Virus record (IMG/VR): IMGVR_UViG_3300024054_000269
Span: 1-64,000 of that record
Direction: 5' to 3' (one strand)
Source: a virus
Length of the DNA stretch: 64,000 bases
The notes under the pieces were generated by a model that worked only from the letters and a program-made list of their open reading frames with translations, did no database searches and was not told the origin of the DNA. This document shows, piece by piece, positions 622-27,222 of the stretch. The stretch's first letter is position 1. Each line of letters starts with the position of its first letter. The position numbers and the translations under genes are program-made.

Positions 622-3051
622 GTGGTAGCGTCGTTTATGTCTTTCGTTGCTCCAATTTCTGCGTGTTTAATAGTTAAAAATGAATCAGGTCAATTAAAAT
701 TTTGTCTTCAGTCTATTAGACCATATGTTGAAGAAATTGTTGTTGTTGATACTGGTTCTGTTGATAGTTCACAAGATATAGCTAAAGAATTTGCTGATAA
801 ATTTGAAATTTTTACTGATTGTAATGATGATCAAGGTCGAATAGTTTCTTTTGCTCTTGCTAGACAAAGAAGTTTTGATTTAGCTACTAAACCATGGTGT
901 TTTTGGGTTGATGGTGATGATGAAGTTGTTGGTGCAAATAAGCTAATCGACGTTGTTAACAAAGCTGAAAAAGAAAAAGACGGAAGACCAACAATGATAA
1001 TGCTTCCGTATGAATATTCACACGATGAAAATGGTAATGTTACTTGTTTGCATTATAGAGAAAGGATAATTAACCCAAAATCTGAATTTGAATGGAAGGG
1101 TCCTGTACATGAAGTTTGTTCTCCAAAATCATCTGCACAAGCATTGCAATCTGATGCTGTTAAAATTGTTCACAAAAGACAAAAGTCTGGGAAAGTCATA
1201 GAACCGAACAGAAACTTAAGAATTCTTAAATCTCATTATGAAAAAGTTGGCGAATCTGATGTTCGTCAATTGTATTACCTTGGTCTTGAATATGGCAATG
1301 CTGGCGATATTGGAAATTCTATTAAATTCCACAAAAGATATGTTGAGTTATCTGGTTGGGATGATGAGAAATTTTTAGCATGTATGAAAATATCAGAACA
1401 TTATCAAGGATTTGGCGATTACGAAAATGCCATTCAATGGGCATTAAAGGCTTTAACAGTTAGAGAAGGTTGGTCTGAGGCTTATTTTTCATTGGGTAAA
1501 AGTTATTATTTTATGGCTCAACGTGGTGGGCCAGAAGAAAAAAGAAATTGGGAAAAATGTGTACATTTTATTCGTCTTGGGTTGCAAATGCCACCGACTC
1601 GAACGGTTTTGTTTATAAATCCAATGGAACGTCAATTTGAAATGCACAGATTTTTGAATCTTGCACTTAACAAGATTGGTGATGTTCGAGGTGCATTGGA
1701 AAGTTGTGATACCGCTTTAAAAATTAAACCTGATTCATCCATTGAATTAAATAGAAATCTTTATGTTAGTTTTTTAGCCAAAAGTGACATAACAAACAAA
1801 ATCAATGACCTTGTTAATGCTGGTGGACTTAGTCAAGAAGTTAAAAATACTGTTCTTGACTTAATAAATTCGAATGATATTTCAAAAATAAACAACACAA
1901 AAATTGAACCAATTGCTGTTCCTTCAAATAAACTTGATATTGTTTTTTATGTTGGTCCAGGTGTTGAGCCATGGAATCCCGACATTATTAAGAAAAATGG
2001 TATCGGTGGATCAGAGACAGCTGTTTATGAGATGTCTCGCCGTTTAGTCAAATTTGGTCATTCAGTCCGTGTGTTTGGTCATTGTGAGAATATTGAAGGC
2101 AATTTTGATGGTGTTAATTATTTAAATTTTACTAAATATAGGAATATAAGCTGTGATGTTTTAATAACTTCACGAAGGCCACGTGCCATTGATGATGAAT
2201 TCAACGTAAGTTCTAAGGTTTCATTTTGTTGGGTACATGACATACATTGTGGCAACGATTTAAATCATTCGAGATCTTTAAGAATTGACAAGTTTTTAGT
2301 TCTTAGTAATTGGCATAGAGAATTTTTTTTAAACCACTATAAATTTATTCATCCAAGTCAAGTGATTACTACTAGAAATGGCATTGATTTGAGCAGATTT
2401 GATCATAAAATTCAAAGAAACCCGCATAGAGCTGTATATAGTTCTAGTCCTGATCGTGGTATGGAAGTAGTTACAAAAGTTTGGCCAAAAATTAGAGAAG
2501 TTATACCTGATGCTGAACTTCATTTGTTTTACGGATTTGAAACTTGGGAGTCATGCGCACGTTCTGCTGGTGACAACGGTCAATTAGACCTTATTCAACG
2601 TTTGAAACAAATGATAAAAGATTATGAAAAATATGGTGTGTATTATCATGGTAGAGTCGATCAAAATCAATTGGCTAAAGAATTTTTAGCAAGTGGTGTT
2701 TGGGCATACAGCACCTGGTTTTCTGAGACAAGTTGTCTAACTGCTATGGAAGCTCAGTGTGCTGGGCTTAGAATTGTTACTTCACCAATTGCTGCCTTGA
2801 ACGAAACAGTTGGTTCAAGGGGTAAAATGATACCAGGTGATTGGTTATCTGAAGAATATCAAAGGCAATTTACTGAGTCTGTTATTGAAGTCATGCTAAA
2901 ACCTGATAACGGTGACCGTTCTGAATTACAAGATTATGCAAAGAAACATTTCTGTATTGATAAATTGGCGTCTCAGTGGGATGAAATGTTTAGAAATGTA
3001 ATTGAGGAAATTTCAATAAACATTGTGCCGCCATACAAAGAGGCATGCTAA
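622..3051 (+). CDS. Bifunctional glycosyltransferase: GT2 domain, TPR-like middle, GT4/GT1-like domain
   Basis: 809 residues from GTG 622, which directly follows the fibre stop; ATG 637 is an alternative start. The N-terminus (about 10-110) is a GT-A/GT2 fold: SACLIVKNES, then VVVDTGSVDSS, and an acidic DGDDE at about 96-100 that fits the metal/nucleotide-sugar site. Residues ~200-400 hold helical repeats resembling TPRs. From ~440 on there is a GT-B-type domain with IGGSETAVYEMSRRL, a glycine-serine acceptor loop typical of GT4 enzymes, then SSPDRGMEVV and an ETSCLTAMEAQCAG donor-binding segment. Two catalytic domains in one chain suggest it adds two sugars in sequence. The acceptor is unknown; the adjacent fibre is a candidate (inference). 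Confidence 0.8.
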   Translation: MVASFMSFVAPISACLIVKNESGQLKFCLQSIRPYVEEIVVVDTGSVDSSQDIAKEFADKFEIFTDCNDDQGRIVSFALARQRSFDLATKPWCFWVDGDDEVVGANKLIDVVNKAEKEKDGRPTMIMLPYEYSHDENGNVTCLHYRERIINPKSEFEWKGPVHEVCSPKSSAQALQSDAVKIVHKRQKSGKVIEPNRNLRILKSHYEKVGESDVRQLYYLGLEYGNAGDIGNSIKFHKRYVELSGWDDEKFLACMKISEHYQGFGDYENAIQWALKALTVREGWSEAYFSLGKSYYFMAQRGGPEEKRNWEKCVHFIRLGLQMPPTRTVLFINPMERQFEMHRFLNLALNKIGDVRGALESCDTALKIKPDSSIELNRNLYVSFLAKSDITNKINDLVNAGGLSQEVKNTVLDLINSNDISKINNTKIEPIAVPSNKLDIVFYVGPGVEPWNPDIIKKNGIGGSETAVYEMSRRLVKFGHSVRVFGHCENIEGNFDGVNYLNFTKYRNISCDVLITSRRPRAIDDEFNVSSKVSFCWVHDIHCGNDLNHSRSLRIDKFLVLSNWHREFFLNHYKFIHPSQVITTRNGIDLSRFDHKIQRNPHRAVYSSSPDRGMEVVTKVWPKIREVIPDAELHLFYGFETWESCARSAGDNGQLDLIQRLKQMIKDYEKYGVYYHGRVDQNQLAKEFLASGVWAYSTWFSETSCLTAMEAQCAGLRIVTSPIAALNETVGSRGKMIPGDWLSEEYQRQFTESVIEVMLKPDNGDRSELQDYAKKHFCIDKLASQWDEMFRNVIEEISINIVPPYKEAC

Positions 3052-3053
3052 AC

Positions 3054-4022
3054 ATGCGCATTTTAGTAACCGGTGGGGCTGGTTTTATAGGTTCTCATTT
3101 GTGCGAGGTTCTTGTTTCTCAAAATCATGATGTGATATGTATAGATAATTTTTTTACTTCACATCGTGAGAATATAAGCCATCTTTTTAAATTCAAGAAT
3201 TTTGAGTTTTTTAGGTATGATGTATGTGATCAATTTCACATAGAATGTAATCAAATTTATCACCTTGCTTGTCCAGCAAGTCCGGTACATTATCAAAAAA
3301 ACCCGGTACGTACTATAAAAACTTCTGTTCTTGGTACATTGAACGCCCTCGAATGTGCGCGTGATGTATCAGCCAGGTTAGTAATTGCTTCAACTTCTGA
3401 AATTTACGGTGATCCAACGGTTCACCCTCAAGTTGAGTCTTATCTTGGCAACGTTAACCCGATCGGTACTAGGTCATGTTATGATGAAGGAAAACGTGTT
3501 GGTGAAAGTCTTGCTTTTTCTTGGTCACAACAATATAAAACTGATGTAAGAATAGCAAGACTTTTTAACACGTTTGGTGAACGAATGGCCATGAAAGATG
3601 GTCGTTTGATACCAAATTTCATAACTCAAGCCATAGAAGGTAAAGATTTAACAGTTTATGGCGATGGAAAACAAACCAGGAGTTTTTGTTATGTTTCTGA
3701 TACTGTATCAGGATTAATTAAATTGATGAATGCTGATAGGATTTCAATCATAAGAAATTCTGAAGAAATTCCTGTGTTTAATATAGGTAATCCAGACGAA
3801 AGAACAATTTTAAACGTTGCGAATGATGTTGTCAGATCATTTGATAACAAAATTGGTGTGTGTTTTGAACCGTTGCCGTTAGATGACCCAAAACAACGGT
3901 GTCCTGATATAACCAAAGCAAAAGAATTATTGAATTGGTATCCAAAAATCAGTTACGAAGAAGGTATGAAGCGTACCGTTAATTGGTTCGTTGATTATAT
4001 TAAAAACCATAACAGTGTTTGA
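3054..4022 (+). CDS. UDP-glucuronate decarboxylase (UDP-xylose synthase)-like SDR enzyme
   Basis: The N-terminus RILVTGGAGFIGSHL is the NAD-binding Rossmann motif of extended short-chain dehydrogenases. Motifs typical of UDP-xylose synthases follow: ACPASPVHYQKNPVRTIKTS, ASTSEIYGDP, HPQVESYLGNVNPIG and CYDEGKRVGE, including the catalytic Ser and YxxxK-type pair. The family converts UDP-glucuronate to UDP-xylose with internal NAD+ recycling. ATG 3054 was chosen because an AAGAGG ribosome site lies 10 nt upstream; ATG 3045 overlaps the previous stop and is only 1 nt from that site. At 322 residues it has the length of bacterial cytosolic homologues. It probably supplies a nucleotide sugar to the neighbouring glycosyltransferases (inference from context). 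Confidence 0.85.
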   Translation: MRILVTGGAGFIGSHLCEVLVSQNHDVICIDNFFTSHRENISHLFKFKNFEFFRYDVCDQFHIECNQIYHLACPASPVHYQKNPVRTIKTSVLGTLNALECARDVSARLVIASTSEIYGDPTVHPQVESYLGNVNPIGTRSCYDEGKRVGESLAFSWSQQYKTDVRIARLFNTFGERMAMKDGRLIPNFITQAIEGKDLTVYGDGKQTRSFCYVSDTVSGLIKLMNADRISIIRNSEEIPVFNIGNPDERTILNVANDVVRSFDNKIGVCFEPLPLDDPKQRCPDITKAKELLNWYPKISYEEGMKRTVNWFVDYIKNHNSV

Positions 4023-5173
4023 TGTCAAAGAAACTTAGATTAGGGTTTTTTTATCATCCTTCCTGCGTTAGGTTGCCATTTAACCCTAATGAACTTTGGT
4101 CGTCAAATCGTGGATTAACTGGATCAGAGCTTGCTTTCTTTATGTATGCAATAGAACTCGCGAAATTTGGTCATGGTGTGACTGTTTTTTCAAAATTTAC
4201 ACATCCGTCTAATATAGACAATGTTGTATGCTGTCCATATCAAGAATGGGAGAATGTATACAAAGATCAGAGTTGGAACGCTTTATGTTCTTGGATGGTT
4301 CCGACACCATTAAAATTTGCAAAAGATGGTGTTTTTAGATTTTATAATCAACAAGTTTCAGACTTTAACATGTGTGAGCCTGGTTGGGAACAATATATTG
4401 ACATTGTTGCACCTTTGTCTTTCTCACATGCAGAACACATGATTGGTAAATGTTCCGTTCCTAAAGAAAAATGGAGAATATTGTACAACGGTGTTGATAC
4501 TTCATTGTTCAAACCTTCTAATAAAATACGCGGTAAGATGATATGGGCTTCATCTCATGATAGAGGTTTGCATTGGCTTTTAGAGGCTTTCCCAAAAATT
4601 AAAAAAGAATCACCGCATGCGAATCTTCACATATTTTACGATTTTAACGGTGTTAATGTATTTTCGAAATGGGAAAATCTAGATAAGAATACGCAAAGTG
4701 GTAGGTATGGCAATGAACTTGGACAAAGATCAAGATATGTTTTAGAAGCTATTAGAAGACTGAAAAATTATGATGTGTTCGTTCATGAATCTGTAAGTCG
4801 TAAACGAATCATTGAGGAAATGTCAACTTCGGAGGTATTAGCTTACCCACTTGACCCAATACATTATACTGAAACGTTTGGCGTGACTGTTCTTGAAGCT
4901 TGTGCATCAGGGGTTGTTCCAGTTTTGTGCACATCCGATGCTTTTGGTGAATTGTGGGGGAATGTTTCTGAAACTGTTCTGCCACCTTATACAGAACACA
5001 AAGAAGAATTTATTGATAAAACTGTCAAACTATTGAATGACGACGAATACAGGGCTAACATGTCAATTAAATGTGTTCGTGAATCACAGAAATTTGACTG
5101 GTCAGTCTTATCAAAAAATTTGAATGAGTGCATAGAGTCCAATGGTGTTTCTGGGTTACCGATTATTTGCTAG
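4022..5173 (+). CDS. GT4-type glycosyltransferase
   Basis: 383 residues from ATG 4022, which overlaps the preceding TGA, indicating translational coupling. GT-B fold features include RGLTGSELAFFMYAIELAKFG near the N-terminus, the acceptor-side Gly loop, then VDTSLF and SSHDRGLHWLLEAFPKI, and a C-terminal donor-binding helix YTETFGVTVLEACASGVVP with the E-x7-E pattern of GT4 enzymes. It resembles the next gene throughout and the C-terminal half of the protein at 622-3051 (the shared SS-x-DRG motif), so the three probably arose by duplication. It is expected to act in the cytoplasm on a nucleotide sugar; donor and acceptor are unknown. Confidence 0.8.
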   Translation: MSKKLRLGFFYHPSCVRLPFNPNELWSSNRGLTGSELAFFMYAIELAKFGHGVTVFSKFTHPSNIDNVVCCPYQEWENVYKDQSWNALCSWMVPTPLKFAKDGVFRFYNQQVSDFNMCEPGWEQYIDIVAPLSFSHAEHMIGKCSVPKEKWRILYNGVDTSLFKPSNKIRGKMIWASSHDRGLHWLLEAFPKIKKESPHANLHIFYDFNGVNVFSKWENLDKNTQSGRYGNELGQRSRYVLEAIRRLKNYDVFVHESVSRKRIIEEMSTSEVLAYPLDPIHYTETFGVTVLEACASGVVPVLCTSDAFGELWGNVSETVLPPYTEHKEEFIDKTVKLLNDDEYRANMSIKCVRESQKFDWSVLSKNLNECIESNGVSGLPIIC

Positions 5174-9489: not shown

Positions 9490-9983
9490 TGCCAACAACA
9501 ATTAACACATGTGAAAAACCAACCTATTCAGCTGAGGCTGCTCTTACTGGCGCTAACAATAAAGATATGTTTTGTATCATGAATCCGAGTGGTTCTGGAA
9601 AAGTATTTAGAGTTTGTGAAGTTTGGGCAGTTGTGTCATCACTAAACGGTTCTAATTATTTCATTCCATTTGAAATTAGAAAAACTACCACTTTGACAGG
9701 TGGTACATCTGTTACGCCCATGAAATGGGATTCAAATGACGCAAGTTCTGCAGCTAACTTCAGACACACACCAACTGGTCTTACAGACGCAGGTATTTGG
9801 TCTACATTTGTAAAAGAAATAGACAAAGAAGTAAGTTCAATCTCAAATATTCGTGGTTTTAAACCAACTTCTTGGGTGAAACCTTTAATACTTTATCCTA
9901 ATGAAGGTTTATATCTTAAACAAATATCAAACAACTCTAGTACGTTCCGTGTGGGCGCTCTCTGGACAGAGGATGTATTGTGA
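9489..9983 (+). CDS. Unrecognised virion-type protein
   Basis: 164 residues; ATG 9489 overlaps the previous TAA. Beta-rich, with the stretch LTGANNKDMFCIMNPSGSGK near the N-terminus and YPNEGLYLKQ near the C-terminus. The Gly-Ser loop is not a convincing Walker A because no Lys-Ser/Thr follows and there is no Walker B. Its neighbours suggest a virion component; no family is recognised. Confidence 0.55.
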   Translation: MPTTINTCEKPTYSAEAALTGANNKDMFCIMNPSGSGKVFRVCEVWAVVSSLNGSNYFIPFEIRKTTTLTGGTSVTPMKWDSNDASSAANFRHTPTGLTDAGIWSTFVKEIDKEVSSISNIRGFKPTSWVKPLILYPNEGLYLKQISNNSSTFRVGALWTEDVL

Positions 9984-10016: not shown

Positions 10017-11099
10017 ATGACTATTCGAATAGTCAACGGTATAATTGTCAATTACACTGTTGACGAGTGGGTAGAATTTAAGAAGTGGCTGGATGGTACG
10101 CATGCAAAATTGCGTTATGTTTGGTCTGATGATGGTGTTTCATATACTATAATTGCTGTAGATGAGCAGATTTACCGTGCAATATCAATCGTAAAGACTG
10201 AAGCAGCTGATTTTGAATCAAATTATAAATCAAAATTTGCACAAATTAGTAACAAAACACAAGATGATGGTGTTCCACAGGTTGCTTTTTCTGGCCGTCT
10301 TGGGAACGAAGTTATATACGCTACGCATAATTTTTGTGATCCAACAACTTGGTATTCTGAATCAATTCGTGTGACTAATGAAATATTGGTTGACTCCGGT
10401 AACGGTTTAGTTTTCAACTCCAACCATGAAAATTGGATTGACATGACCCACGGGAAGGTCTTAGACGAAGAAGCTGTAGCAGAAGAGTCTGATCCGGATT
10501 ATAAATATTTAGTAACAGTTACTGTTGATAATATTGACAAGATTCAGAGAAACCCATTCGCAGAATCTGGAGGTGATTACGATGTTAATTATACAACTGG
10601 TCAAGTTACTTTTTTTGGTTCACAATCTGGTAAAACTGTCAAAGCTTCGTATAATTATGCAAACGGCTCGACTTGGGTAATGAAACCTAGTTCTGGTAAA
10701 CAACTTAGAATTGAACAGGCTGAAGCTCAATTTTCTGGAGATGTGGTATTGAATGACACAATAAAATTTGGCGCGTGGGGTCTAGTTGATGTTTTTGCAC
10801 CGCAACTTGTTCCTGACGTTATACCGTCTGGCACGCTTATAGAGTTGTTGTCTACTCGTTATCAACGTTTAGACCAAATAATTGATGAAGCTCTTGGCAG
10901 TTATCCAGTCATACCAGCGATTGGTGGAAGTCAACGTGGGAATTCGACGGCTCGTTATGGTTTTCCATTTCGTTATGGAACTGTTAGAGTTATCTCGTCA
11001 TCTGCTGGCATGGAACTTCGAGTCAGATTAGAAAATGATATAAAATACGGTGGTGAGAGAGCTACTGCTACATTTTATTGTTTGTCTGAAAATGAATAA
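10017..11099 (+). CDS. Unrecognised virion-type protein
   Basis: 360 residues from ATG 10017, preceded by a clear AGAGGA ribosome site 5 nt upstream; an upstream TTG at 9999 is less likely. The leader contains a short duplication (TGATTCAGATGATG / TGATTCAGAGGATTG). Mixed alpha/beta with a central DYDVNYTTGQVTFFGSQSGK segment that resembles strand-loop-strand units of phage baseplate and neck proteins; a similar phrase (YIVDVETGLIQFL) occurs in the 32905-34116 product. Function is unknown and a virion role is inferred. Confidence 0.6.
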   Translation: MTIRIVNGIIVNYTVDEWVEFKKWLDGTHAKLRYVWSDDGVSYTIIAVDEQIYRAISIVKTEAADFESNYKSKFAQISNKTQDDGVPQVAFSGRLGNEVIYATHNFCDPTTWYSESIRVTNEILVDSGNGLVFNSNHENWIDMTHGKVLDEEAVAEESDPDYKYLVTVTVDNIDKIQRNPFAESGGDYDVNYTTGQVTFFGSQSGKTVKASYNYANGSTWVMKPSSGKQLRIEQAEAQFSGDVVLNDTIKFGAWGLVDVFAPQLVPDVIPSGTLIELLSTRYQRLDQIIDEALGSYPVIPAIGGSQRGNSTARYGFPFRYGTVRVISSSAGMELRVRLENDIKYGGERATATFYCLSENE

Positions 11100-18839: not shown

Positions 18840-19018
18840 ATGAATTCTGTAATCATCCAATAAGACACATAAACTGTTACTGTTATTAATCTATAATCAT
18901 CAAAAAATTTTAAATTCTGTAATCATCAAATTTTAACAGAAAATGTACTACTAAATAGTATTGGAATTAGATTGTAAATAAAATTTAATTGGTTGATTTG
19001 GGTGATTACAGAATTCAT
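18840..19018. repeat. 16-bp inverted repeat with extra direct copies
   Basis: ATGAATTCTGTAATCA (18840-18855) is repeated exactly in reverse complement at 19003-19018. Partial direct copies, AATTCTGTAATCATC and ATCTATAATCATC, lie between (about 18890-18930). The stretch 18801-18988 is otherwise gene-free. It adjoins the start of an HNH-GNAT gene and may be its recognition or insertion boundary. Confidence 0.6.
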
Positions 19019-19048
19019 AGAATGTTAATCACCCAGTATAGTCATAAA

Positions 19049-20671
19049 ATGGAAGCTCAAACATGTGTTGGTTGTTTTGTTGAAAAACCACTATCTGATT
19101 ATTTCAATAATGCAATTAAGAAAAATGGTAAAGATTCAAAATGCAAAGTATGTAGAAAATTAAGAAACAAAGAATGGTCAAAAGATAATGAAGAAAAATG
19201 CAAGTCAATACGGAAAGCATATTATGAAAAAACTTATTGGGATAATAGAGAAAAACGAAAAATAAGATATCAACTTGAACATGATAAAATATTAGAACAA
19301 AAACGTGAGTATGTGTCAAGAACAAGAGAAGAAAGGAAGAAATATCTAAAAGACTATAGAAATAGAAATAAAGATGAACTACAAATTCTCAGTAAATTGA
19401 ATAAACGATTCATAATTGATGGGGTATTGGATTTACTTGGTCCAATATGCATTGATTGTGGTGAATTGAACAGGCATTTTTTGACAGTTGACCATAAATT
19501 GAACAATGGGAACGAAGAGAGACACCTGAGCAGTATTGGATGGAAAAGGAGAATATTAAATGGTCAATCAAATAAAGATGATTATCAAATTTTATGTTTT
19601 AATTGCAATTTAGGTAAATATAGATTAAACCCAACAAACCATCAAAAAGGTAGACAAATTATTGGTGAATTAATACTATGTCCGAAATGTTTGTTTGAAA
19701 AAGATCGATCAGAATTTTCCAATGATTTATCTAAGAACAGATCTTGTTTTGAATGTCAGCGATTTATGGACACTTTTGTTAAAGTTAAAACAATAAATTT
19801 TGTTGGAGGTAAATGTGCATGTTGTGGAATGTCAGAACCACATAAATTAACAATTGATCATATTAAAGGTGATGGATGGTATAGAAGAAAATTTTTGAGT
19901 GAAGGTTCTGGCGTTGATTTTTATAAAAAAATCTTGAACCATACTATAGATTCTAAAGGTTTTCAAATCTTGTGTTGGAATTGCAATATGAGTAAACACA
20001 TAAATAATGGTGTTTGTTTGCACCAAATGCTATTTAAATCAGAAAAATTAAACAGAAATAGACCAACGCTGACCAAAAATAACAATAGCTCTGAAAATAA
20101 AGATTTTAATTTTATTAATATCACAATAATTAAGGGTTCTAACCTCCAGTCAAAGAAATTGTTCAAAGATTATCACTACAACAAATTCGGGCGCCCTCAA
20201 ACCGCTATCTATTCAGCCATTCTTGACGATAAAGTCATTGCAGCTGTCAAATTTTGTACGCCAGTTAGGTTAGAGGTTGCAACGACGCTTGGCTATGAAT
20301 ATAAAGATGTAATTGAGCTTGATCGATTTTGTATTCATCCTGAATATCAGAAAAAGAATTTTGCATCTTGGCTAATGTCGCGTGTGGTCAAACAGTTTAA
20401 AACTGACTTTCCTGACATCAAGGCTTTAGTTTCATTTGCTGATACTCGTTTTGGTCATGTTGGTACTATTTATAAGGCTTCAAATTGGAAGGAACTTGGT
20501 CAAACTTCACCAAGTTACGTCTACGTCGATCTTGATGGCAATGAAATAAACAAGAAAACTCTATATGGTTATGCAAAACGTAGAAACATGAAAGAACGTG
20601 AGTGTGCTGACCGGCTCGGTCTCAAGAAAGTGCCGACGCCGCCAAAAATCAAATATATTTACGAACTTTAA
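19049..20671 (+). CDS. HNH endonuclease fused to a Mom-like GNAT domain
   Basis: 540 residues from ATG 19049, which has a CAGTATAGT element just upstream; the frame is open back to 18989. An N-terminal Cys pair (CVGCF ... CKVC) is followed by an HNH/treble-clef unit (CIDCGELNRHFLTVDHKLNN ... ILCFNCNLGKYR). A second one follows (CACCGMSEPHKLTIDHIKGD ... ILCWNCNMSKH). The last ~180 residues are a GNAT fold like phage Mom DNA-modification proteins: YHYNKFG, ELDRFCIHPEYQ, ALVSFADTRFGHVGTIYKAS. Free-standing HNH proteins are typically homing endonucleases; fusion to a possible modification domain is unusual. It is one of four such GNAT-endonuclease proteins in the window. Confidence 0.75.
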   Translation: MEAQTCVGCFVEKPLSDYFNNAIKKNGKDSKCKVCRKLRNKEWSKDNEEKCKSIRKAYYEKTYWDNREKRKIRYQLEHDKILEQKREYVSRTREERKKYLKDYRNRNKDELQILSKLNKRFIIDGVLDLLGPICIDCGELNRHFLTVDHKLNNGNEERHLSSIGWKRRILNGQSNKDDYQILCFNCNLGKYRLNPTNHQKGRQIIGELILCPKCLFEKDRSEFSNDLSKNRSCFECQRFMDTFVKVKTINFVGGKCACCGMSEPHKLTIDHIKGDGWYRRKFLSEGSGVDFYKKILNHTIDSKGFQILCWNCNMSKHINNGVCLHQMLFKSEKLNRNRPTLTKNNNSSENKDFNFINITIIKGSNLQSKKLFKDYHYNKFGRPQTAIYSAILDDKVIAAVKFCTPVRLEVATTLGYEYKDVIELDRFCIHPEYQKKNFASWLMSRVVKQFKTDFPDIKALVSFADTRFGHVGTIYKASNWKELGQTSPSYVYVDLDGNEINKKTLYGYAKRRNMKERECADRLGLKKVPTPPKIKYIYEL

Positions 20672-21401: not shown

Positions 21402-21585
21402 GTTCCGGCTTTTTAGTTGCCGGACAAACTTTGATACCCCGTGAAGTCTCCGCCGTTCCACTTCTGGAGGTCGCGTTCCGGCTTTTGAGTTGCCGGACAA
21501 ACTTTGATACCTTGGCGTCGCCGAACGTTGGCTTCATGCCCTCCAACTCGTTCCGGCTTTTGAGTTGCCGGACAAACTTTGATAC
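21402..21585 (-). CRISPR. CRISPR mini-array: three 36-nt repeats, two spacers
   Basis: Repeats at 21402-21437, 21475-21510 and 21550-21585; spacers of 37 nt (21438-21474) and 39 nt (21511-21549). Read on the minus strand (the cas strand), the repeat starts GTATCAAAGTTTGT and ends in CCGGCAACTCAAAAGCCGG plus AAC. That is a 5-bp hairpin next to the spacer, as in type V crRNA handles. The repeat farthest from the gene (21402) has one mismatch, as expected for a terminal repeat. There is no room for a normal leader: the array starts 6 nt after the nuclease stop. Both spacers are about 60-65% GC by hand count, far above this genome. Confidence 0.93.
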
Positions 21586-21591
21586 AATCAT

Positions 21592-23553
21592 TCACGATGA
21601 AAGCGTTTCTAGTGCTGTTTCGTTGGCGTTTTGCGAGATATTCTTATTTGATTTCGTATTAACATTCCTTTCTTGGTTTTTCAGTTGTTTTTCAGATGGT
21701 CCGTTAGGCTTGCGAGAAACTCCTGGGTTTGGAGAACCATTTGATTGCTCGCAACGTTTCAACAAAATATGGCAGGCATTTTCATCTTGATCCCAATATT
21801 TTTCACAGTTTGAGCATTGGAGAACCAAAATTTCTTGATTTTTCCATTTATTAATGTGTCCGCACAAATGACATTCCCTGGTTGTATTCTCTGGATCAAC
21901 CTTTATAATATTTGGTTTACCAAAAGCTTGAATTAACTCTAAACGAAGCTCACCAGGTGATCCAATTGACATAATGCAATGCGTATAATCTTTCGGGTTT
22001 TCATTCTCTGGGGTCGAGTTTTTTATAAATTTTCTAAGATCCATATCCTCAACAACTAATGTTTTATATCTTTGTGATAAATTAGAAGCTATGTTTCTGT
22101 ACAAATGTTGACGATTCGATATTGTCTTTTTGCGTTGATCGGCTGCCCATTGAATCAAATGCCGGTCTTTACGGCGCCAAAGTTCTAAATAAAACAACAG
22201 TTGAGTGGCTTGGTCTTTAATCCCAGCCAAATTCGCCCACGTAAATATTTCGTCCTTTGTCGCAAATAAATCTAATTTAGACGAAAATCGATAATTTTTC
22301 CAATCAGAACAAATTTTAAAAATAAGATCTTTGTCTGATTCAGTTAACCATCGATTAACAATCGAGGCTAATTTGCCATGCATTCTCCACTGCGAGATAT
22401 TTAACGTTGCTTCTGGCATCCAATTTGGCAAACCTGAAAGTTTAGATTTAATGGCTTCTGACAAAATTGATAAAGCAACATTAAAAAATTCATCTGAGTA
22501 ACCAATTAATTTAGACGAATGCTCTAAAGCCGTTTGAATGTGATTAGGAACTAAAATTTCTTGCTTGAACCCATCATTTCCAACCACGAATCCGACTCTT
22601 ATACCATCAGGACGAACACGCCAACCAAGATCGAACGCTATTGCACCGCTAGTTGGCCTGACTTTTACGAATTCATTTGATTCGAGTGTTAGTTGTAGTT
22701 CAAATTCAGTATGAAGACCAATTCTACGGGTTGAAATCCAAGCCCAAGTAATGATTGCATCATCTGGCAATTTTCTATGCAAAGTTATTGGAAATTCGGC
22801 CCAAATTGGATTTCGTGACTTGTCTGAACCAACTCGAATTCTGACTTTTGACCTTGATAAAGGCGGCCTTACTTTTTGCTTACCATTTTTAATAAAATAA
22901 GCCTCAGGCGAAACCGGGTTGATCTGAATCATAGTTGATTTTTGATCAAAAATATCTTTTACGGTCGGTTTGTTTTGTAGCTGAACACCAATACGACCAT
23001 TTCCATCCCAACGGTGAAATTTTTGATCAGCTTGAGATGACTTGGAAGATTCTACCGCCTTTTCAATTAAGAGATAAGTTCCAAAATAAACTCCACATTT
23101 TGATCTAGCCAATTTAACTTTCTCAAGCATATCAGAAGTCAGTTTTTTATCGGCAGCTTCCAAAACTTCATTTGAATTTGCTTCATCACGTGCTTGTTTA
23201 AGTGACTCGTAAACTTGTTTCTTTTCGGCTTTCAAGTCGGAAATATGCTTTTGTAGTTCAAGATTTGAAACGCGTTTTCGAACTGATTTTCTAATTGACC
23301 TAAGTTCATCAATTGCTTTATCAAGCCTTTCTGAAACGTCTTTATATTTAACTTCAAATTCGGCTAAGTTTGGACACAATGAAGAACGCACAGTACGATA
23401 GGCTGAGCGTCTTTCTTGTTCTATTTGAACAAGATCGTTGTAATATTTATGTGCAAGTTTTAATTGCTCCCAAACAATTTGGGCATTTGAGGTTGGGCGT
23501 TTGCAACTAAATGACCAGACTCGGACTGGCAAATCTGACATTCTACGACGCAT
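21592..23553 (-). CDS. cas12m-like: Type V CRISPR effector, Cas12m-like
   Basis: 653 residues. From memory of mycobacterial Cas12m the match is co-linear: LAHKYYNDLVQIEQERR at 34-49, a coiled coil ~62-125, FHRWDGNGRIGVQLQ at 179-193, ITLHRKLPDDAIITWAW at 256-272, the RuvC-I strand AIAFDLGWR with Asp308, RuvC-II LVVEDMD with Glu502, a zinc ribbon with Cys561, Cys564, Cys580 and Cys583, and RuvC-III WDQDENA with Asp590. All three acidic residues are present, whereas studied Cas12m proteins have an altered RuvC site and silence transcription without cutting. The guide would come from the array 6 nt downstream. No cas1, cas2 or cas4 is nearby, as is usual for V-M and phage systems. A Ser/Asn-rich tail (about 604-653) extends beyond the zinc ribbon. 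TnpB is excluded by length, the N-terminal domain and the adjacent array. Confidence 0.88.
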   Translation of the reverse strand: MRRRMSDLPVRVWSFSCKRPTSNAQIVWEQLKLAHKYYNDLVQIEQERRSAYRTVRSSLCPNLAEFEVKYKDVSERLDKAIDELRSIRKSVRKRVSNLELQKHISDLKAEKKQVYESLKQARDEANSNEVLEAADKKLTSDMLEKVKLARSKCGVYFGTYLLIEKAVESSKSSQADQKFHRWDGNGRIGVQLQNKPTVKDIFDQKSTMIQINPVSPEAYFIKNGKQKVRPPLSRSKVRIRVGSDKSRNPIWAEFPITLHRKLPDDAIITWAWISTRRIGLHTEFELQLTLESNEFVKVRPTSGAIAFDLGWRVRPDGIRVGFVVGNDGFKQEILVPNHIQTALEHSSKLIGYSDEFFNVALSILSEAIKSKLSGLPNWMPEATLNISQWRMHGKLASIVNRWLTESDKDLIFKICSDWKNYRFSSKLDLFATKDEIFTWANLAGIKDQATQLLFYLELWRRKDRHLIQWAADQRKKTISNRQHLYRNIASNLSQRYKTLVVEDMDLRKFIKNSTPENENPKDYTHCIMSIGSPGELRLELIQAFGKPNIIKVDPENTTRECHLCGHINKWKNQEILVLQCSNCEKYWDQDENACHILLKRCEQSNGSPNPGVSRKPNGPSEKQLKNQERNVNTKSNKNISQNANETALETLSS

Positions 23554-24289: not shown

Positions 24290-24310
24290 ATTTTTTTGAT
24301 AGATATAAAT

Positions 24311-24832
24311 ATGTTAAGCAAAATTGCGAACAAGATTGCGAACAAAATAGCACAAGATCATACAAAAAGCGACTTAAAAGATCTAATCACTAAGATCGTT
24401 TCGTTCGGTTACAAACCGATTATTGGGTTGATGGAACTTGGAGGCGGAAGTGTGTATGATGTTTGGGCTTTGTCAAAAAATCCAGACGCTTGGGAACCGT
24501 ATAAGGGCAACAGATACGTTAAAAACTCAGAAAGTTACGTTATTGGATATGAATATAATGATGAATTGACTTCACAAAATATGGCTGAGGAGATGATTTA
24601 CGAAGAAACTAGCCAAGATTGGCTTCTAGAAGGTGAAAAATCAAAAGAAGTGAATACTGAGAAGTATAGATTGATACCCATTGGTAATTTAATCTCCAGA
24701 ATTGAAGGGCATCCAGGTACTTTAGAAAGAATAAAAGACATACTGTCAGCAGTCGATCCAGAATTAAGTCAAACTGCGGAAGTTTTGGAAAAAGATATTG
24801 AATATTGGTCTGAAATCAGACTAGACAAGTAG
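24311..24832 (+). CDS. Protein of unknown function
   Basis: 173 residues from ATG 24311 (TTG 24296 possible). It starts with a repeated amphipathic segment SKIANKIANKIAQ, followed by an alpha/beta body (GYKPIIGLMELGGGSVYDVW). No catalytic motif is recognised. The gene ends 11 nt before the hairpin-repeat array on the same strand, so read-through from it could transcribe the array. Confidence 0.5.
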   Translation: MLSKIANKIANKIAQDHTKSDLKDLITKIVSFGYKPIIGLMELGGGSVYDVWALSKNPDAWEPYKGNRYVKNSESYVIGYEYNDELTSQNMAEEMIYEETSQDWLLEGEKSKEVNTEKYRLIPIGNLISRIEGHPGTLERIKDILSAVDPELSQTAEVLEKDIEYWSEIRLDK

Positions 24833-24843
24833 ATGTAAGTTAA

Positions 24844-25069
24844 TTTTGAAATTTGTCTGGCAATTCAAAGGCCAGAACGATGAGCCAAGGCGTTAAAGCT
24901 TGTTCGGTAGCCAAAAAACCGGAACACTTGTGCCCGTTTCTATCAAAGTTTGTTCGGTAACTCAAAAACCGGAACTACTGAGTACAAGTCATAAACCTAT
25001 CCGGTGGTTCAAAAACCGGAGCCACTTGTAGATGATTTAAGCTTGTCTAGTAGCTAAAAAACTAGAACC
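24844..25069 (+). repeat. Array of five diverged CRISPR-repeat hairpins with 10-14-nt gaps
   Basis: Five 36-nt units (about 24844-24879, 24891-24926, 24941-24976, 24988-25023, 25034-25069; the last may be off by 1) match the repeat of the 21.4 kb array, read on the plus strand. The third is 32/36 identical. Gaps are 11, 14, 11 and 10 nt, too short for ordinary spacers. Stems change in pairs: CTGGC/GCCAG, CGGT/ACCG, CCGGT/ACCGG and CTAGT/ACTAG against CCGGC/GCCGG in the CRISPR array, while the A-rich loop and final AAC/AGC persist. Retained pairing with changed bases shows selection on RNA structure. Possible roles are decoy repeats (RNA anti-CRISPR) or a non-coding regulator; a simply decaying array is less likely. 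Confidence 0.88.
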
Positions 25070-25078
25070 GAACCTGCA

Positions 25079-25570
25079 TCACGATTCAATCATTTCCTTT
25101 GATAATTGTTCATTAACAAATTTCAATAATTCTGATCTTACATATGCACCGGCTTTTCTTAATTTTGGTCTGTGGGTCAATCTTCGACGTCTTCTACATG
25201 CCGCGAAAAAATGACCAGAAGTTGGCTTTGTTGAATAATCAATATAGTATATGTTTTGGTTTTGGTTTTGGTTTTGGTCAGCGTGTATGTCAACGCGAAT
25301 TAATAATGAATATTTTGATATTAATATTTGTATCACGCCTAGTTTTTGATTTAATTTATATTTTATGATATGATTTCCGCATGTCTGATTCGGTATAACT
25401 GATAATGGGTGTTTGTCAATTGATTTTATGAATGCCTTTATTCCATTTTCATGTTTCATGTTTCTGATAAATGCCACGATTTTGATTTTGTAACAGTCAG
25501 CCTGATCTCTGTGCGTCGCCATCGTGGCTTCACGTGCGCGGAGGATTTGAGGCCCAAATTTATTGTACAT
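25079..25570 (-). CDS. Basic protein of unknown function with Gln-Asn repeat
   Basis: 163 residues on the minus strand, convergent with the hairpin array. It contains DQNQNQNQN, coded by a TTTTGG repeat at about 25254-25278, and a basic patch ACRRRRRLTHRPKLRKAG that could bind nucleic acid. It ends KEMIES, a member of the shared C-terminal tail group. Its position beside the repeat array is notable, but no function can be read. Confidence 0.5.
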   Translation of the reverse strand: MYNKFGPQILRAREATMATHRDQADCYKIKIVAFIRNMKHENGIKAFIKSIDKHPLSVIPNQTCGNHIIKYKLNQKLGVIQILISKYSLLIRVDIHADQNQNQNQNIYYIDYSTKPTSGHFFAACRRRRRLTHRPKLRKAGAYVRSELLKFVNEQLSKEMIES

Positions 25571-26776: not shown

Positions 26777-26972
26777 GTCCCAGGCCAAACAGAGAAAGTC
26801 CTCTAAGGAGGTCGGTAAAGGTGGAACGAACGATCGAAAGATTGTTCATGGCACCACGCTCTTAAATCCTCAAACTCACTGGAGAGTCTAGGCAGCAACC
26901 ATTTGGTTCGCAGGTTAATAACCAAGTCTTGACTCAATGAAGGTGAGAAAAGCCGTAGTTTGGTCCTGGGAC
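26777..26972 (+). ncRNA. Structured non-coding RNA, class unknown
   Basis: A 196-nt gene-free stretch folds by eye as a closed multi-branch RNA. GTCCCAGG (26777-26784) pairs with CCTGGGAC (26965-26972), and CC/GG extends it with one bulge. Inside are CCTC-TAAG-GAGG, a GGTG/CACC helix enclosing GAACGATC-GAAA-GATTGTTC with a GNRA loop, and nested helices CTCAC/GTGAG, GAGTC/GACTC and TTGGTT/AACCAA. The GNRA loop and the upstream promoter-like motif favour the plus strand. It is not a tRNA or tmRNA and shows none of the RNase P, SRP or group I core sequences I can recall. It is more GC-rich than the surrounding DNA. Confidence 0.72.
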
Positions 26973-26973
26973 G

Positions 26974-27222
26974 CTATCTTCTCCAATTTGCATGTTTAAC
27001 AACTTCTTCATGTGTTTTGTTTTCTTGTTTACAAGCAGCTTCGTATATTATCTGTAATGATGTAATGACAAACCCGCTGGCTAATGACGCATGTATGCAT
27101 TTGTCCAAAACTTCCAGAACTTGAATAGCAGTTGGCGGGTTGGACCATTTACGAATTAATTTTTTCATTGAATCATCAAGCTGATCATCTGAAGCCTCCA
27201 ATAAGAGTTGACCGAAATTCAT
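26974..27222 (-). CDS. Small helical protein of unknown function
   Basis: 82 residues, all-helical by composition (QVLEVLDKCIHASLASGFVI). Its stop lies 2 nt beyond the end of the structured RNA on the opposite strand, so the two transcripts would converge. Its start is divergent from the wHTH gene at 27261 with a 38-nt AT-rich gap. No family is recognised. Confidence 0.5.
   Translation of the reverse strand: MNFGQLLLEASDDQLDDSMKKLIRKWSNPPTAIQVLEVLDKCIHASLASGFVITSLQIIYEAACKQENKTHEEVVKHANWRR

Follow-up and report, generated by a model that had tools for sequence, protein, structure and literature searches.

What is a row of diverged CRISPR-repeat hairpins doing near the gene of a phage-encoded Cas12 protein, apart from the array of that protein and on the opposite strand? 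We examined this question in the window, by which we mean the whole 64,000-nt stretch of DNA analysed, itself part of a 182,302-base virus record. Judging from the sequence, the cassette is probably a second guide array, compact and hard-wired, that serves the DNA-binding Cas12m of the phage itself.

Repeat-like hairpins near a phage cas12m gene

The cassette and its neighbours are arranged as follows.

21402..21584, − strand: canonical array of three repeats (21550-21584, 21475-21509, 21402-21436), pitch 75 and 73, GC-rich spacers
21592..23553, − strand: cas12m effector gene, 653 aa, type V-M (PDB 23vw Cas12m, E=5e-67)
24296..24832, + strand: 178-aa gene with no family match, on the cassette strand; its end is 11 nt ahead of the first unit
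24844-24878, 24891-24925, 24941-24975, 24988-25022 and 25034-25068, + strand: the five hairpin units, given as 35-nt extents
25079..25570, − strand: convergent 163-aa gene, which bounds the cassette

The cas12m gene, 1.3 kb from the cassette, is the sole Cas12-like gene found in the 182-kb record, where searches for a second Cas12 effector and for Cas1 both gave none. Its product keeps D308 and D590, which are conserved across alignments, in line with the D-E-D triad. At the cassette itself no clear promoter and, on either strand, no terminator-like site was found, and an Rfam search of the cassette gave no match. Plausibly, the cassette is the 3′ UTR of the 178-aa gene.

Elsewhere in the window, a GC-richer non-coding stretch of around 200 nt (26785-26985) has a predicted structure z of -1.5 on the + strand and no Rfam match above chance. 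A 72-nt tandem repeat (4-178) resembles a collagen-like Gly-X-Y coding repeat, and a 560-aa protein (18989-20671) ends in a C-terminal Mom-family (DNA modification) domain (Pfam PF25680, E 7e-21).

A first-pass annotation had described five diverged repeat-like hairpins here. We confirm all five on the + strand, with the array repeats on the − strand. Over 35 nt, units 1 to 5 share 27, 25, 32, 20 and 23 positions with the array repeat, compared to 22/35 for the best other site in the 182-kb genome and 23/35 for a reversed-sequence control. Accordingly, units 1-3 stand out singly. The best match had been put at 32/36; the 32 identities hold, over an actual length of 35 nt. Units 4 and 5 are not significant singly and are therefore placed by their similarity to unit 2 (68% and 77%, respectively), by register and spacing, and by structure. 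A covariance model run on the 182-kb record scored strongly at eight sites only (E 5e-11 to 2e-7), the next site being AT-rich with E=0.02. As the eight sites are the model's own training sequences, this result shows that there are no further copies and is not a measure of independent significance.

The position of the cassette between two convergent genes would suit chance hairpins or a transcription terminator. We consider this hardly credible: no terminator-like site is present, one unit matches the array repeat with E about 1e-8, the register is fixed across units and the stems covary (below). The cassette is also not a conventional array, which would have near-identical repeats and spacers of around 25 nt or more; its units are 20-32/35 identical to the array repeat and its spacers measure 16-20 nt.

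Unit boundaries and stem pairing

Each unit divides into a scaffold and a free, guide-like segment.

24849..24878, + strand: unit 1 crRNA scaffold, 30 nt, stem UCUGGC/GCCAGA
24879..24895, + strand: unit 1 guide-like segment, 17 nt, between-unit identity at background
24896..24925, + strand: unit 2 scaffold, stem UUCGGU/ACCGGA
24926..24945, + strand: unit 2 guide-like segment, 20 nt
24946..24975, + strand: unit 3 scaffold; over 35 nt this unit is the nearest of the five to the array repeat (32/35)
24976..24992, + strand: unit 3 guide-like segment, 17 nt
24993..25022, + strand: unit 4 scaffold, stem UCCGGU/ACCGGA, non-canonical G.A swapped to A.G
25023..25038, + strand: unit 4 guide-like segment, 16 nt
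25039..25068, + strand: unit 5 scaffold, stem UCUAGU/ACUAGA
25069..25085, + strand: presumed unit 5 guide, placed from the other units, its 3′ end having no bounding unit

The presumed unit 5 guide overlaps the end of the convergent 163-aa gene. The boundaries come from the identity between units, which is 0.30 at positions -35 to -31, rises to about 0.7 from -30 to -1 and falls to 0.2-0.24 over the next 17 nt. The conserved part is thus 30 nt per unit, and the five nucleotides before it are at background. Since conservation starts at -30, the segments left free after the scaffolds measure 17, 20, 17 and 16 nt, with room for a guide of around 17 nt each; the gaps of 10-14 nt reported earlier followed from assuming a full 36-nt repeat and do not stand.

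These dimensions can be set against solved Cas12m complexes. For Cas12m2, crRNA nucleotides -36 to -30 are disordered; base pairing joins -22 to -17 with -8 to -3 and G(-23) with A(-2), the protein reads C(-1), and the heteroduplex spans 17 bp (PMC10442227). GoCas12m uses around 30 nt of its repeat along with 18 bp of guide, and no tracrRNA is needed for Cas12m to cut its own pre-crRNA (PMC11013384). In the cassette, the limit of conservation coincides with the point from which the solved crRNA is ordered, and all five units have the 6-bp stem and C(-1), with the G.A pair in four and A.G in unit 4. Taken with the published scaffold and guide sizes, the unit pitch of 46-50 nt corresponds to one minimal Cas12m crRNA per unit.

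The stems differ between units and still pair. In an alignment of the five units with two variants of the array repeat (stem UCCGGC/GCCGGA), all 42 stem cells pair and six carry changes on both sides, a covariation score matched by 0/500 shuffles. The paired stem changes noted in the first-pass annotation are therefore real. Changes on both sides occur at three stem pairs (C-G to U-A, G-C to A-U, and U-A versus C-G). Within the five units alone, 30/30 stem pairs are intact despite 16 stem substitutions (2, 3, 3, 2 and 6 in units 1 to 5). Random placement of these substitutions would leave all pairs intact with a probability of ~2e-5 if the units were independent; as they share ancestry and are not fully independent, the true probability is higher.

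This bears on a second explanation, that the cassette is the remnant of a once ordinary array, now decaying without function, in which pairing persists by chance or for want of time. The diverged units and shortened spacers would fit such decay, as would the lack of targets in the searches described below. The intact stems are unexpected under it, and so is the coincidence of the conservation limit with the onset of order in the solved crRNA. We regard a remnant as unlikely, also in view of the related phages described below.

Compact arrays in other Cas12m phages

Single-protein scans with the Cas12m of the window gave no relatives, and alignment-based scans were needed. Run on IMG/VR, these turned up first 28 and later 42 loci holding relatives of Cas12m, in overlapping and partly redundant sets. 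Virus Rctr197k (locus L011) is a distant relative. No close relative with the same cassette as the window was found. Arrays in most relatives have a pitch of 71-77 nt, and compact diverged units occur in a minority, among them phages unrelated to that of the window.

The strongest example is L025, where 28 units, all different, directly follow cas12m at a pitch of mostly 45-51 nt (one of 60) and form the only visible array near the gene. Of the stem cells in these units, 95.8% are paired and 44 are changed on both sides; every pair covaries, with 0/500 shuffles reaching this level. For the G/A pairing of -23 with -2, covariation in L025 was no greater than chance would give (p=0.14). The earlier claim that the RNA shape is under selection thus holds, supported by the compensatory changes seen in the window and, with far greater strength, by those in relatives such as L025.

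Other loci shorten along the array. The pitch drops from 73 to 43-50 nt distally in L020 (stems including CCGAG/CTCGG and GCGGGC/GCCCGC) and from 73 to 37-47 nt in L046 (stems CUGC/GCAG, CCGC/GCGG and GCGC/GCGC, on a shorter scaffold); in both, the 73-nt pitch is proximal to cas12m and the short pitch is distal. L011 has one short distal unit, and smaller compact cassettes are found in L042, L036, L040 and L038. Separately, the 35-unit array of L111 (11868-14301) has 34 distinct units in the scanned segment at a normal pitch of ~73, that is, divergence without shortening. In Rctr197k (L011), a second CRISPR array with a different repeat lies beside a 'transposase-like' gene (4634-4888 and 2993-4396), possibly a second Cas12-like system.

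Pitch was collected over 32 loci with position-weight models tuned per locus, hand-chosen seeds included. The main peak is at 71-75 nt and a second group at 45-56 nt, with few values below 45, almost all from L046 with its shorter scaffold; this second group is dominated by L025, and once L025 and the window are set aside, the short pitches are distributed rather uniformly between 45 and 68, again with few below 45. We used this pitch-based search in place of a strict automatic finder of hairpin chains, which missed most cassettes, including that of the window, and gave control hits in coding repeats. The trimmed appearance of the distal ends of several V-M arrays agrees with decay into remnants. 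The floor near 45 nt and the 95.8% pairing over 28 units in L025 argue against it.

On the Cas12m tree, the nine compact loci need nine label changes, on separate branches; because loci were labelled compact by hand and long branches are common, the tree supports recurrence without fixing the number of origins. Searches for Cas1 in 11 compact-array phages (that of the window and ten further records, which may be incomplete) found none. In L025 and L042, some guides are diverged copies of each other, which suggests that guides spread by duplication.

Two loci place compact crRNA-like units directly upstream of the cas12m start codon: L042 (9640-9990), where the ribosome-binding region occupies the place of the last guide, and L040 (9440-9620), with three units. 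In L041, a relative of L040, the aligned interval is 36 nt compared to about 180, so the cassette is absent there. The units before cas12m in L042 and L040 are a possible autoregulatory leader. Also in view of these units, the most serious functional rival for the window is one in which the hairpins act on the phage's own Cas12m as a sponge or regulator, binding it to limit or delay its activity, or having it cleave the mRNA of the upstream gene within its 3′ UTR. The hairpins fit the phage's own Cas12m best, and under this reading the segments between them need match nothing, as agrees with the target searches below. A free segment of 16-20 nt in each unit would be unneeded, and the 28 units of L025 are the only visible array near its cas12m. 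We rate a sponge or regulator as rather improbable, slightly more so than a remnant.

The first-pass annotation offered three functions: a decoy bank that occupies several Cas12 effectors of hosts or rivals, tuning of the phage's own effector, and mini-spacer guides for it. The guides fit best, as the pitch equals one minimal Cas12m crRNA and L025 has the same design directly after cas12m. For the bank of RNA anti-CRISPRs, directed at the Cas12 of the host or of a rival element, there is precedent in phage-encoded repeat mimics that inhibit type V-A and other systems (PMC10651486), and different stems could suit different effectors. We found no pointers to it. The core of the units matches the repeat that goes with the phage's own Cas12m, their pitch equals that of complete crRNAs, the same design serves as the main array of another phage (L025), and Racrs are described as solitary, compared to five units in tandem here. 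We judge such a bank very unlikely.

Guide targets, proposed function and known systems

Compact guides were searched against eight own genomes, and self-targeting was not above reversed or complemented controls. The PAM in known Cas12m cases is TTN. One window candidate, a unit 4 match at 94989 with a TTN PAM and 2 mismatches in 17, was discarded, an equal number of control hits being found. We also rejected the window guides as regulators of their own cas12m or its upstream region, where every match had at least 6 mismatches in 17. Viral scans with one window spacer, the unit 1 guide and one L025 guide pair returned only the L025-type contigs themselves and no foreign match, the unit 1 guide having no match in IMG/VR. 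The targets of the compact guides are probably foreign.

Some array spacers do match their own genomes. In L041, the full-length spacer of array unit 11380 matches the phage's own cas12m (9732-9770, 36/38) with an adjacent TTC PAM, about 110 nt past the presumed start, possibly for autoregulation or as a weapon against the cas12m of a sister phage. A second apparent self-targeting of cas12m is found in L038, where the spacer of array unit 17738 matches 10908-10943 (36/36) with the 5′ context GTC. The spacer of array unit 12408 in L022 has a 34-nt perfect match to the phage's own repeat-coding gene (1045-1078).

Returning to the second guide array for the phage's own Cas12m, we propose that each unit consists of a 30-nt crRNA scaffold plus a guide of 16-20 nt, close to the minimum size of crRNA that Cas12m has been seen to use. 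Transcription would run along the + strand, with the units probably forming the 3′ portion of the transcript of the gene that ends at 24832, and Cas12m itself would excise them from this precursor. Loaded with these units, it would bind DNA at foreign targets and block transcription, as in the Cas12m proteins studied so far, which silence via binding and not cutting (PMC11013384, PMC10442227). Four points count against this reading: no clear promoter or terminator was seen for the cassette, it is apart from the canonical array on the opposite strand, unit 4 is the most divergent (20/35), and no target was found for any compact guide among the searches run.

Such cassettes may originate where a phage lacks a spacer-acquisition module and the units of an ordinary V-M array duplicate, drift and shrink. 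Shrinking would cost each unit half of its spacer and the 5′ end of its repeat, which is dispensable; the hairpin would be kept by selection. More generally, it may well be, with about as much to be said on either side, that in Cas12m phages without an acquisition module arrays recurrently become hard-wired cassettes of guide genes, with compensation preserving the fold in units of around 47 nt and with guides multiplying as copies that then diverge, unseen by CRISPR finders.

CRISPR arrays are recognised by their identical repeats. L025, in which all 28 units differ and nearly all keep the stem, is evidence that every repeat of an array may be different while the array still works. If this is true, viral guide arrays are undercounted, as finders look for identical repeats and accept spacers only from about 25 nt upwards. 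For example, a survey of landfill viruses ran MINCED with the minimum spacer length set to 25 nt (PMC12607003), so compact arrays would be missed there. The units would also form a natural inventory of the scaffold variants that Cas12m tolerates and of minimal guides, directly useful for compact DNA binders, and would allow study of the turn from CRISPR immunity to a fixed set of guide-RNA genes.

We found no description of diverged, short-spacer V-M arrays in the literature searched, which covered few subscription papers and no preprints. Ordinary type V-M (V-U1) arrays share with the cassette the effector family, the crRNA fold (G, 6-bp stem, ~9-nt loop, stem, AC) and the expected self-processing; the cassette differs in that all its repeats differ, its spacers are 16-20 nt compared to ~36-38, and it lies off the array on the other strand. 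Racrs or solitary repeat units are likewise phage-encoded repeat mimics with a retained hairpin (PMC10651486), but they are solitary and aimed at the host system, whereas the five units here have their effector in the same phage. Virus-borne mini-CRISPR arrays are also small guide arrays on viruses, for virus-virus conflicts (PMC11656645); theirs have 1-2 spacers and host-identical repeats, in contrast to the diverged repeats, short guides and own effector of the cassette. A phage-encoded RNA-guided DNA binder for gene regulation (PMC13418256) is likewise a case of phage-borne guided DNA binding, but it has no known CRISPR array and regulates host flagellin.

The closest functional parallel is the delocalized crRNAs of CAST systems (I-F and V-K), off-array units with a partly matching repeat and their own guide (PMC11656645). 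Those serve transposon homing, whereas the cassette has several tandem units with a DNA-binding Cas12m. The closest evolutionary parallel is the TIGR arrays of Tas proteins, which also have variable yet consistently palindromic stem-loops and short guides (PMC12045711); their effectors carry Nop domains, their RNA is unrelated and their dual spacers are 8-12 nt, a layout that the spacers of the cassette do not fit.
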